DNA from: Clostridia bacterium
GTDB lineage: Bacteria > CBDUZB01 > JAGLHV01
Assembly: GCA_030595925.1 (NCBI GenBank)
Contig: JAUVLC010000003.1
Coordinates: 1 to 49,088 of the forward strand
DNA: 49,088 bases
Direction: 5' to 3'
The translations under genes were made by a program, and so were the position numbers. Positions 9,883 to 38,653 of the stretch are shown here, piece after piece (the stretch's first letter is position 1; each line of letters opens with the position of its first letter). The notes beneath the pieces were generated by a model that saw only the letters and a program-made list of their open reading frames with translations, ran no database searches and was not told where the DNA came from.

Positions 9883-9887
9883 AACAT

Positions 9888-10308
9888 TTTTGACATTACT
9901 TAAAAAATTGTAGTCGCCTCATTTATGATGCATCATTATTATCTGTTCCGTCTAATAAAGAGATTGTTGAAAAATGGTAGCCGACGGCTTTAGCCGGCGA
10001 TTTTTTTTGCTAATTATTACCAAATAGTACCACTTTTTCACGCAAACTAAAGTTTGCGACTACCAAATTCGTATTTTTCAACAATCTCTAAATTGGGCAA
10101 CTACATTGATTTGGGAGAAGGGCAATTGTAGTTGAGGCATTTAGACACTGTCTATTGTGTTGTATTAAATACCTGGTTTTAGGTAGCCGCAGACTTTCCT
10201 CCTTACAGACTGGCGGACAAGTAGTCTGCGTAATTTTTTTGTCAAGGCGTAATCTAAAGCTTTCGACTAGCAAAATTTTTTGACAGCACTTAATCTATAA
10301 AAAAAGGA
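9888..10308 (+). repeat. Repeat mosaic, copy A (upstream of pfk)
   Basis: This is a gene-free stretch of about 420 bases. It shares long blocks, in the same order and strand, with 11650-12112 on the other side of pfk. Shared blocks include ATTTTTGACATTACT, a GTAGTYGC block, GGGCAACTACATTGATTTGG, CAATTGTAGTTG and GGTAGCCGCAGACTTT. Several blocks are palindromic (for example CAACTACATTG/CAATTGTAGTTG), so transcripts would fold strongly. A 131-bp MITE is inserted at 9959-10089. The opening block ATAAAACATTTTTGACATT recurs at the far end of copy B. Confidence 0.75.
9959..10089 (+). mobile_element. 131-bp MITE, copy A
   Basis: Perfect 16-bp terminal inverted repeats (AGAGATTGTTGAAAAA and its reverse complement) bound a 131-bp element with no ORF. 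Inside are two palindromes, GCCGACGGCTTTAGCCGGCG and CGCAAACTAAAGTTTGCG. It is flanked by AA on both sides. The sequence around 11875-11890 in copy B has the same flanks joined without the element, an apparent empty site. Confidence 0.85.
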
Positions 10309-10315
10309 GTTAGTT

Positions 10316-11626
10316 ATGGAATTAAATATTCCCGGAGATGAAGAGTTAAAAAATTTAGATATACATTCTTTAGGAGAGGCTAAAATAAAATCTCCTTTAA
10401 AACTAGATAATTCCTTGTTTGTCGATGATGATGACAAAATTTTAGTTCATTCTGATTTAAAAAAAATTAAAGAGTATTTTGCCTGTCGGGAAATTCCCCC
10501 GGCTTTTCAACCTGCCGGTCCCCGGAGAAAGATTTTTTTCAATCCGGAGGAAATAACTTGCGGGGTTGTTACTTGCGGAGGAATTTGTCCGGGATTAAAT
10601 GATGTGATTAGGACAATAGTTTTAACCTTGCAATGGCAATATGGGGTTAAGAAAGTACTAGGTTTTAGATACGGATATGAAGGAATGACTTCAAAAGCAA
10701 GGAAAGAACCAGTAGAATTAAATCCTTCTATTGTTAAAGAGATTCAACATAAAGGAGGAACTATATTAGGAAGCAGCCGGGGACATCAGAATCTTGAGGA
10801 TATGATAAAGACCCTCGTCAAGTATAAAATAAAGATTCTTTTCACTATTGGCGGGGATGGAACGCTTAATGGAGCACATAATCTTTGTAAAGAGATAAAA
10901 AAGCAGGGAGAACTTATTTCCGTAATTGGAATTCCGAAAACGATTGATAATGATATTTACTGTTCGGAGACAACATTCGGGTTTGCTACTGCTGTGGAAG
11001 AAGCACGTAATTCCATTGCTGCGGCCAATGAGGAAGCTAATGCCGCTTTTAACGGAATCGGGTTAGTCAAGTTGATGGGAAGGGATTCCGGATTTATAGC
11101 AACAGAGGCATCCCTTGCTAATAGTGATGTAAATTTTTGTCTGGTTCCTGAAGTGCCTTTTACTCTTGACGGGGATAAAGGATTTTTACGACGGTTAGAG
11201 AAAAGATTGGAGCGAAAACATCATGCAGTCATCGTTGTTGCTGAAGGGGCAGGACAATATCTTATGGGGCAAAAGAAAGAAACAGTAAAAGATGCTTCCG
11301 GAAATGTTAGACATAAAGACATAGGATTTTTTTTGAAACAATCGATTAAAGAATACTTTAAAAAGAAAAATATTCCCATTACGGTAAAATATATCGATCC
11401 CAGTTATACTATTCGCAGTTGTCCTGCTAATGCGTTTGATTCTGTGGTGTGTTTGTTTTTCGGACAGAACGCCGTTCATGCCGGTATGGCAGGAAAAACC
11501 GATATGTTTATTAGTTCCTGGAGTCAGTGTTTTACCCATGTTCCACTGACTATGGCCATAAATAAAAGAAAGAAAATTAATCCTAAAAATATTTTTTGGC
11601 AAACGATATTGGCTATAACTGACTAA
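10316..11626 (+). CDS. 6-phosphofructokinase (PfkA family, plant/TP0108-like clade)
   Basis: Phosphorylates fructose 6-phosphate in glycolysis. The 436-aa length and the motifs VVTCGGICPGLNDVIR, GGDGTLNGAHNL (about 179-190), GIPKTIDNDI, GIGLVKLMGRDSGFIA, DVNFCLVPE and VAEGAGQ mark the longer PfkA-family group related to plant ATP-PFKs and spirochaete enzymes. The Gly after GGD points to ATP, while the Lys in PKTIDND is the residue usually seen in PPi-dependent enzymes. This combination occurs in plant-type ATP-PFK, so ATP is likelier, but the donor is not settled. RBS AAAGGAG precedes the ATG. The gene stands alone between two copies of a repeat mosaic. Confidence 0.9.
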   Translation: MELNIPGDEELKNLDIHSLGEAKIKSPLKLDNSLFVDDDDKILVHSDLKKIKEYFACREIPPAFQPAGPRRKIFFNPEEITCGVVTCGGICPGLNDVIRTIVLTLQWQYGVKKVLGFRYGYEGMTSKARKEPVELNPSIVKEIQHKGGTILGSSRGHQNLEDMIKTLVKYKIKILFTIGGDGTLNGAHNLCKEIKKQGELISVIGIPKTIDNDIYCSETTFGFATAVEEARNSIAAANEEANAAFNGIGLVKLMGRDSGFIATEASLANSDVNFCLVPEVPFTLDGDKGFLRRLEKRLERKHHAVIVVAEGAGQYLMGQKKETVKDASGNVRHKDIGFFLKQSIKEYFKKKNIPITVKYIDPSYTIRSCPANAFDSVVCLFFGQNAVHAGMAGKTDMFISSWSQCFTHVPLTMAINKRKKINPKNIFWQTILAITD

Positions 11627-11649
11627 AATCTTAGGGACAGGCTTACATT

Positions 11650-12112
11650 TCTGATATCACTTAACAATCTGTAGTTGCGGCATTTAGAGATTGTTGAAAA
11701 ACGGTAGCCGACGGCTTCAGCCGGCGAATTTTTTTGCTGATTATTACCAAATGTTACCATGTTTTCACGCAAACTAAAGTTTGCGACTACAAAATTTGTA
11801 TTTTTCAACAATCTCTTTATGACGTATTATTATTGTCTGTTCTGTCCAATCATCCAAACTAACGGCGGACAAGTAAATTGGGCAACTACATTGATTTGGG
11901 AGAAAGGCAATTGTAGTTGCGGCATTAATTTGTACTGAGCTTGTCAAATGTATGATGCTGTTTATTGTGTTTTAATTTTTGCATCAACAGATTTGGTTAT
12001 AATTCTGTTTTAGGTAGCCGCAGACTTTAGTCTGCGTAATTTCTTCGTCGAGACTGTAACCTAAAGACTTCAACTACCAAAAGATAAAACATTTTTGACA
12101 TTACTAAAAGAA
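11650..12112 (+). repeat. Repeat mosaic, copy B (downstream of pfk)
   Basis: This second copy of the mosaic at 9888-10308 lies in the same orientation, is gene-free and carries its own MITE (11686-11816). It has a fuller form of the last palindrome, GTAGCCGCAGACTTTAGTCT, which copy A has interrupted by CCTCCTTACAGACTGGCGGA. It also holds TTGTACTGAGCTTGTCAAAT, related to the element inside the GDT1-like gene. The closing block ATAAAACATTTTTGACATTACT (12089 onward) equals the opening block of copy A. Confidence 0.75.
11686..11816 (+). mobile_element. 131-bp MITE, copy B
   Basis: Same length and same perfect 16-bp terminal inverted repeats as the element at 9959-10089, with a few internal differences. 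TT lies on both sides. Copy A has the corresponding uninterrupted sequence GCCTCATTTATGATG at 9916-9930, which shows a precise insertion with a 2-bp duplication. Confidence 0.85.
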
Positions 12113-37276: not shown

Positions 37277-38653
37277 TTATAAAGAGATTTATAAGAAATT
37301 CGTGTTTTAAATTAAAATTGACTTAAATATTTCGTTCTTTGGTATAATTTCAAGTGATCTTGTAAGCCTTTAATAGTTCTAAAACCATATCTTGATTTCT
37401 CCCAAGATCGCACTATTTTAATTAAATTTTCAGCATTACCAGATCTTAAAACATCTGGTTCTTTCAAGAAAGTAAACATATAATGACAGGTTGCTGTATT
37501 CATAAACAAGCGAATAATTTTTTTGAAATAAATATTCTTTTTGTGCCATTTTTCATAGTAAAGTTGGTTTTTTTTGTCATAAGCTTCTTGTTGAGTTTTT
37601 GATTTTTCACATATATTACGGATTCGATCTTTGAAAATTAGAACATCTTCAATAATTGTGCCTTTGTGAATCTTCCGAAGTTCTTGGATTTTCTCTGTTC
37701 TTTTTTCCGTCATCTTTTTATGATTGTTAAAATTTGTAAGGAGAATTTTTCGGTGATTCCAAAGATCAATAGCCAGGACATTAAATTCGTTCTCTTTTAA
37801 TGATTTACAGTACTCTTTTATTGTTTTCTCAAGATGACGGTTAATGTCCTGCCAAATGTGGAAGTAATCATATTGAATTTTGGCCTTAGGATAAACTTCT
37901 TTAATAGCAATAGGGAAAGACTTCCACATATCAACAATAAAACACTTAACTTCTTCTATACCAAGTTCTTTGAGTTTCTTAAGGTATTTTACTACCTCGT
38001 TTTTATCTTGGCTTTTAACACTGTCTATATAAAGAATATGTCCTTTAATTCTATCTGAAATTATCAAAGCCTTATTCTTTGACCGTTTAGGATTAAGATC
38101 GTCTAAACAAAGCACTTTAGAAGGAGATAGTTGATGAATCAGATCTTTGAAATTCAAGCTATCTGCTTCCCGATGTTTCCAGCGATCTATTGTTTGTCGA
38201 GAGCCAGTAGTATTCAAAGAACGAGAAAAACGGTTTTTTATCTTCTGAGAAGGAATATTATCAATTATATTTGAAGCTATGGCTTCACGGATAATTCTAT
38301 CCGTAGCTTTTTGATATTTAGTTATTCCTTTTATTGGAAGAGAAAAACTTTTAATGCTACAATCAGAATTTAAACATTTAGCCATTACAACTTGCACCTT
38401 AAGTAAAACTGGTTTATTAAGATTAAAATCTTTTACTGTCTTCCAGTGTTCTTTCTCTTTTTTGAAAGGTTGTTTTATACCACAAGAAGGACAATAACAG
38501 TGTTTTGGAATTCGGGTCTTTACAATTTTAATTTTTGACATTGGTAGATCCTCTTTTTAAAAAAAAGTCTACCAATTTATATTTCAAAGAGCAAAATTAA
38601 TCTTATAATTTTTCAGTATTTTTAAAAAGTTGCTACAAACTTGAGTAAGTTTC
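37231..38653 (-). mobile_element. ISL3-family insertion sequence (1,423 bp)
   Basis: The terminal inverted repeats are 32 bases with one mismatch: 37231-37262 begins GAAACTTGCTCAAGTTTGTA, and 38622-38653 is its complement. One transposase gene lies on the - strand. The flanks GAATAGG and TAGTTTTA show no 8-bp target duplication, unusual for ISL3, so recombination or deletion has removed one original flank. Two solo ends of the same kind are at 19852-19884 and 29068-29100. Confidence 0.92.
37312..38541 (-). CDS. ISL3-family transposase
   Basis: A 409-aa intact protein. The N-terminal zinc finger of ISL3 transposases shows HCYCPSCGIKQPF and a second pair, KCLNSDCSI. A helix-turn-helix region (SLNTTGSRQTIDRWKHRE) follows. 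The DDE catalytic residues lie in LCLDDLNPKRSKNKALI, CFIVDMWKSFPIAI and SGNAENLIKIVRSWEKSRYGFRT. The RYGFRTIKGLQDHLKLY end is typical. It fills the IS almost wholly. A weak AGGATC-type site precedes the ATG (38541). Confidence 0.95.
   Translation of the reverse strand: MSKIKIVKTRIPKHCYCPSCGIKQPFKKEKEHWKTVKDFNLNKPVLLKVQVVMAKCLNSDCSIKSFSLPIKGITKYQKATDRIIREAIASNIIDNIPSQKIKNRFSRSLNTTGSRQTIDRWKHREADSLNFKDLIHQLSPSKVLCLDDLNPKRSKNKALIISDRIKGHILYIDSVKSQDKNEVVKYLKKLKELGIEEVKCFIVDMWKSFPIAIKEVYPKAKIQYDYFHIWQDINRHLEKTIKEYCKSLKENEFNVLAIDLWNHRKILLTNFNNHKKMTEKRTEKIQELRKIHKGTIIEDVLIFKDRIRNICEKSKTQQEAYDKKNQLYYEKWHKKNIYFKKIIRLFMNTATCHYMFTFLKEPDVLRSGNAENLIKIVRSWEKSRYGFRTIKGLQDHLKLYQRTKYLSQF

Follow-up and report, generated by a model that had tools for sequence, protein, structure and literature searches.

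In the window (the whole stretch of 49,088 nucleotides of DNA that was analysed), the gene pfk, encoding an ATP-dependent 6-phosphofructokinase of the PRK06830 type, is flanked on either side by a repeat mosaic, and the two mosaics (A before the gene, B after it) lie on the same strand and have a common block order (Table 1), as the sequence-only reading of this DNA had described. Judged by their sequence, the mosaics are clusters of GTAG-headed REP hairpins, of types called alpha and beta here, and each mosaic contains one copy of a miniature element, MITE-1. Searches of the window for Rfam families and for tRNAs found neither.

Table 1. Features of the pfk locus and of mosaics A and B (positions in the window).
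Feature	Position	Strand	Remark
Resident 5' motif ACATTTTTGACATTACTTAA, left flank of mosaic A	9884..9903	+	Single copy at the mosaic-free orthologous spacer of the sister species (G001)
Beta-type REP hairpin of mosaic A, loop empty (GTAGTCGCCTCA-TTTA-TGATGC)	9910..9931	+	Uninterrupted state of the site occupied in B
Second, inverted beta REP of mosaic A, 3' arm (GTCTAA on +)	9950..9955	-	Split by MITE
Left target duplication of MITE copy A, TAAA	9956..9959		
MITE-1 copy A, 129 bp, class I core, 15-bp ends GAGATTGTTGAAAAA	9960..10088	+	
Alpha-type REP within MITE A (GTAGCCGACGGC-TTTA-GCCGGCG)	9977..9999	+	
Inverted alpha-type REP within MITE A (GTAGTCGCAAAC-TTTA-GTTTGCG)	10041..10063	-	
Right target duplication of MITE copy A, TAAA	10089..10092		
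Inverted beta REP invaded by MITE A, 5' part (GTAGTTGCCCAA on -)	10093..10104	-	
Alpha-type REP of mosaic A	10183..10231	+	Loop (10195-10223) filled by TTTCCTCCTTACAGACTGGCGGACAAGTA insert
5' motif, decayed copy, right flank of mosaic A	10274..10293	+	
pfk, ATP-dependent 6-phosphofructokinase (PRK06830 type)	10316..11626	+	G001 orthologue 93% identical
5' motif, decayed copy, left flank of mosaic B	11645..11664	+	
Beta REP invaded by MITE B, 5' part (GTAGTTGCGGCA)	11671..11682	+	
Left target duplication of MITE copy B, TTTA	11683..11686		
MITE-1 copy B, 129 bp, class I core	11687..11815	+	
Right target duplication of MITE copy B, TTTA	11816..11819		
Second beta REP of mosaic B, different 24-bp insert in loop	11850..11873	+	Supposed empty site for copy A
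Third REP of mosaic B, loop filled by TTTGTACTGAGCTTGTCAAATG-type insert	11913..11958	+	Read from sequence and alignment
Alpha-type REP of mosaic B, loop empty (GTAGCCGCAGAC-TTTA-GTCTGCG)	12014..12036	+	
Resident 5' motif, right flank of mosaic B	12089..12108	+	Upstream of next gene

The two MITE copies are 92% identical (119 of 129 positions within the ends) and, as had been noticed, occupy different points of the common block order: the MITE sits in the second beta loop of mosaic A, the first being empty, but in the first beta loop of mosaic B, where the second contains the 24-bp insert. A shorter relative of this insert sits in the same kind of loop at C8:16206-16242. The sequence-only reading gave the element 131 bp and perfect 16-bp inverted ends. 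That repeat is present (9959-10089 in A and 11686-11816 in B, arms included), but the element itself spans 129 bp and has 15-bp ends, the sixteenth pair being a base of the target duplication, because the full set of genomic copies fixes the duplication at four bases (TAAA on both sides in A, TTTA on both sides in B) rather than the two, AA or TT, that had been proposed. The proposal that each mosaic carries the empty site of the other's insertion holds in one direction: the first loop of A is the uninserted form of the site filled in B, but B cannot serve as the empty site for A, where the TAAATTGGGC half is intact but the 24-bp insert occupies the same loop. Removal of the element with one TTTA or TAAA restores a 62-bp inverted REP doublet in both mosaics, which argues that the MITE inserted twice, independently; the same doublet is found empty and free-standing at C19:5600, C19:7364, C75:7916 and C135:10551. 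Because this block exists without the MITE, and the MITE in many other contexts, the MITE is mobile and separate from the mosaic, as first thought. Mosaics A and B also have in common a 53-bp stretch (96% identical), the full length of which does not recur elsewhere in the search output. Given this stretch and the restored doublets, the order originally suggested, duplication of the mosaic followed by two later MITE insertions, is the simplest history. In the predicted fold of single-stranded DNA, the element tops the REP stem as a longer hairpin (z of -6.2 and -5.4 for the two copies in the window).

The sister species (G001; MAG RS_13_36, JAGLYT01) has the same gene order, with DNA 91-92% identical, and neither of its pfk spacers contains a mosaic; one copy of the motif ACATTTTTGACATTACTWAA is found in each. 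In the present genome each mosaic is bordered by this motif on both sides, one copy being intact and the other decayed. The motif is genus-wide, occurring at 45, 12 and 10 places in three species (at most 3 for a reversed control), and in nearly all places read it is closely followed by a ribosome-binding site and start codon, which identifies it as a resident 5' element, with the look of a promoter or 5'-UTR element restricted to the lineage. This accounts for the equality of the closing block of B and the opening block of A, which had been counted as part of the mosaic: the block is the resident motif, present also in the mosaic-free spacers of G001. In the form AACATTTTTGACATTACT(A/T)A the motif precedes ilvB, carA, a ParA-like gene, pfk and others (window copies; L150-L169), and REP arrays often abut it. 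The best explanation is that the mosaics were inserted into both pfk spacers after the split from the sister species, and recombination through the motif is one possibility for the two motif copies that bound each mosaic. Recombination of the pfk segment as a unit, also proposed earlier, would be allowed by the direct repeats, but no sign of it was found: pfk of this sequence is single in the genome, with one paralogue that is 33% identical.

The genome is a 2.6-Mb draft MAG of 193 contigs, 97% complete, of which the missing part may contain an autonomous copy. Pattern and BLAST searches confirmed across it the MITE recognised in the window, detecting its ends dozens of times, mostly as pairs 131-145 bp apart, and defining 23 paired copies of 129-145 bp with the 15-bp ends GAGATTGTTGAAAAA, besides several single ends. 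Two unrelated cores occur, in both orientations: class I (131 bp including the arms) has two inverted REP hairpins inside, and in three longer copies these internal REPs have received short inserts; class II (144-145 bp), also in both orientations, has a different repeat pair. An identical TTTA or TAAA is present on both sides of 21 of the 23 copies. The exceptions (L002, 1351-1481, and L009, 656-805) combine a TAAA flank with a TTTA flank, and the halves of L009 derive from two different REPs, as expected of deletion or recombination between two direct MITE copies.

Each of the 23 copies has half of a hairpin on either side, with GTAG or a near variant at the hairpin's head, examples being GTAGTTGCCTCA-TTTA-TGAGGC, GTAGTTGCCCAA-TTTA-TTGGGC, GTAGTGGCGACA-TTTA-TGACGC, GTAGTTGCTCCA-TTTA-TGGAGC and GTAGTTGCCTGA-TTTA-TCAGGC; the stem varies among copies and the loop is constant. 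Against a background of 1498 TTTA/TAAA sites, which are the other such sites of the window only, GTAG occurs at a distance of exactly 8 nt beyond the duplication in 22 of 23 copies (background, 4), and at least five of six flanking pairs are complementary in 13 of 23 (background, 11). Among 14 intact hairpin types, stem pairing extends to 94% of cells, compared with 76% after shuffling (none of 500 shuffles was as high), with 17 two-sided changes and three stem pairs changed on both sides. When copies that differ in stem type, or in the class or orientation of the core, are counted apart, the table of copies reads as at least 16 separate insertions. Intact beta hairpins number 59 in this genome and 8 and 2 in the sister genomes (none for a reversed control pattern). 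That the TTTA loop of a REP hairpin is always the target had escaped the sequence-only reading, as had the second insert of B and the resident nature of the outer block; its observations are partly confirmed, and its interpretation is partly supported.

The REP hairpins of this genome have a GTAG head, an imperfect palindrome, inverted doublets and a high copy number, as GTAG REPs and REPINs do. On contig C71 (L389, 921-1370), a Y1 gene has beta REP doublets on both sides and a beta REP hairpin in frame within its own coding sequence; its product matches Pfam Y1_Tnp, and NCBIfam REP_Tyr_transpos with 56 bits, below the cut-off of 80. The other Y1 loci examined have no beta REP flank of this kind. 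Mobilisation of the beta REPs is probably the work of the RAYT-like transposase encoded between them on C71.

A search for interrupted hairpins revealed a second MITE family, with ends GAGCCTGTGCCAAAA, in alpha-type REP loops (GTAGCCGCAGGC-TTTA-GCCTGCG), with copies at C19:6072, C19:10617, C94:7800 and C17:25180 and a single end at C135:4683; in a loop of TTCA type it lies between TTCT and TTCA. MITE-2 was seen only in alpha REPs, whereas all 23 MITE-1 copies are in beta hairpins and none in alpha loops, so the target is not simply any TTTA hairpin; since the alpha type is at least as common (25 alpha and 19 beta hairpins, by a hand count among the places listed), each family appears to prefer one REP type. 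The fully read MITE-2 copies (L025, L036 and L038) contain an internal beta REP doublet, and class I MITE-1, itself within beta loops, has alpha REPs inside, so that each family has copies bearing the REP type invaded by the other. Other short inserts in REP loops are CCTCCTTACAGACTGGCGGACAAG, TTTGTACTGAGCTTGTCAAATG and the 24-bp insert of mosaic B. An alpha-loop insert, TTTCCTCC(T/A)(T/A)ACAGACTGGCG(G/A)ACAAGTA, which has no obvious ends, recurs at five places (window 10195-10223; L011, 1648; L033, 1042; L034, 1032; L035, 1072).

A transposase between such ends, which the sequence-only reading had envisaged, was not found in the genome itself, where no pair of ends lies 1-3 kb apart and the four DDE_Tnp_1 genes are not between these ends. 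Autonomous copies with these ends were likewise not found in the genus and phylum sample (three genomes), in 12 genomes from which other hits came, or in viral contigs, in which three end patterns and a search with transposase proteins gave no match. An ISL3-family transposase gene lies in the window (37312-38541, minus strand); ISL3 elements generate 8-bp target duplications, and this candidate was set aside for that reason. The RAYT was set aside as mobiliser of the MITEs since HUH enzymes are not known to leave a target duplication.

Most of the 76 end-pattern matches in genome contigs were in coding sequence, such as dnaA, and are due to chance; beyond these, the scan yielded two related elements. 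One (L077), in a distant bacterium, measures 127 bp, has GAGACTGTTGAAAAA ends around a core of another kind, and lies in the TTTA loop of a hairpin without GTAG, GATTCCGGC-TTTA-GCCGGAATG (also written GGATTCCGGC-TTTA-GCCGGAATGACGG); the other (L104), in an Omnitrophica MAG, is 212 bp long and has REPs inside. The one near match to an autonomous element (L123), in an Anaerolineae MAG, is a broken transposase gene between GAGACTGTTGAAAAA and TATTTCAACAGCCTC, 1475 bp, with its reading frame in two pieces. Its protein has DUF772 and DDE_Tnp_1 and is IS1182/IS5-like, the best NCBIfam match being IS1182 (E 4.6e-35, 121 bits against a cut-off of 270); the site has no clear hairpin, and the flanks differ (TTTA/TATA). 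Four annotated IS1182 elements of plasmids (L170-L173) are at hairpins of unrelated sequence, L171 within a long inverted repeat and L173 between two different hairpins. L170 and L172 have a whole terminator-like stem-loop on both sides, the hairpin having been duplicated in full, as in the other outcome sketched in PMC5678879.

As far as sequences can document it, the copies establish insertion inside the loop with exact duplication of its four bases, at least 16 times, with empty hairpins elsewhere and a second family behaving alike in alpha REPs. MITE-1 is very probably a non-autonomous DNA transposon that targets the TTTA loop of beta REPs, themselves probably moved by a RAYT, and that depends on a DDE transposase acting in trans and duplicating the loop only. 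On an extruded hairpin or cruciform, such a transposase, probably IS1182-like and bound to the 15-bp ends, would join these ends to each strand at the loop's 5' side; repair would then copy the loop, leaving the stem split around the element. Since the element is palindromic, its insertion would lengthen the hairpin rather than destroy it. IS1272, an IS1182-family element, inserts at hairpins unrelated in sequence, with loss of the stem-loop (PMC5678879, PMC4923244); in the hypothetical pathway c of PMC5678879, only the loop would be duplicated if the ends were joined at its 5' side. The match between that outcome and the duplications seen here points to a transposase of the IS1182/IS1272 kind. 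We put the chance that the mobiliser is IS1182-like at about even; counting against it, the link to IS1182 comes from a single element, L123.

What the transposase recognises may be a conserved sequence (GTAGTNGC...ATTTAT) rather than a structure. That it reads the REP sequence (GTAGTNGCNNNATTTAT) and not the hairpin, the palindrome being incidental, is a serious alternative, if rather an unlikely one: the invaded REPs all have GTAGT, GC and the A/T adjoining the loop, and MITE-1 avoids alpha REPs while MITE-2 was seen only in them, but three stem positions vary with compensation, the L077 element uses a hairpin without GTAG, and the IS1182-family relatives L170-L173 are at hairpins unrelated in sequence. 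It is improbable that the loops are fragile extruded cruciforms which capture any short palindromic DNA during replication or repair, with no dedicated transposase; the other short inserts in the same loops (CCTCCTTACAGACTGGCGGACAAG, TTTGTACTGAGCTTGTCAAATG and the 24-bp insert of B) would suit such capture, but MITE-1 has conserved ends and, in nearly all copies, a precise 4-bp duplication, as cutting and joining by a transposase gives.

More doubtful still is a composite repeat of MITE and REP amplified as a unit by way of the RAYT, in which the MITE would not be separately mobile. The REPs are repeats of the RAYT type, and long flanks are common to some copies (the ACAACTCTGATTTT...GTAGTGGCGACA context of L001, L004, L011 and L017); against this stand the 16 or more combinations of stem type, core and orientation, the 59 empty beta hairpins, exact 4-bp duplications of a sort that HUH transposases are not known to make, and the mutual empty sites of A and B (that in B with the 24-bp insert in its loop). 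The two window copies by themselves permit reading the element as an ordinary MITE that made a 2-bp AA/TT duplication on entering unremarkable AT-rich positions in a duplicated mosaic. As to target and duplication length, this reading is refuted by the 4-bp TTTA/TAAA duplication within a hairpin loop throughout the genome, which leaves the order of events standing.

The proposed targeting of a hairpin loop by DDE transposition has partial precedents. IS1272 and TnSha1 likewise have DDE-type inverted ends of about 16 bp and hairpin targets of differing sequence, entered in both orientations, but they delete or replace the stem-loop without duplication (PMC5678879, PMC4923244), whereas here the stem persists, the duplication covers just the four loop bases, and the elements are gene-less MITEs. 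REP sequences are also the preferred target of IS1397, ISKpn1, IS621, ISPpu9/10 and ISRm22 (PMC1525189); those are full-length elements of the IS3, IS110, IS4 and other families, whereas here the TTTA loop is the sole target, and the two REP types are shared out between two MITE families that contain REPs in turn. With GTAG REPs, REPINs and RAYTs (PMC3733652, PMC3116915) the present repeats have in common the GTAG head, imperfect palindrome, inverted doublets, high copy number, intergenic location and a Y1 transposase flanked by REPs; they differ in that MITEs interrupt the REP loops with loop duplication, the converse of the REP dimers inside other palindromes described in PMC3733652. Like the bacterial MITEs RUP, Correia/NEMIS and ERIC, these elements are short, non-coding and intergenic, with inverted ends and a short duplication, but their target is confined to the loop of another repeat family. 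Duplication of the loop alone had been drawn as a possibility, but not observed, for IS1182-type elements. A broader reading, tentative and held with less than even confidence, is that two MITE families move by DDE transposition directed by structure, with no more than the hairpin loop duplicated, and that each invades one REP type and has copies that carry the other, so that MITEs and REPs nest and spread each other's targets.

To the question of how some transposases read the shape of DNA instead of its sequence, this genome contributes a natural set of more than 20 insertions together with empty controls, in which the stem is variable, the loop constant and the loop alone duplicated, and from which follows a specific prediction of where a hairpin-targeting transposase cuts. 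For the organism, the tip of a dispensable repeat hairpin, which is still a hairpin after insertion, would be a harmless landing site for mobile DNA.
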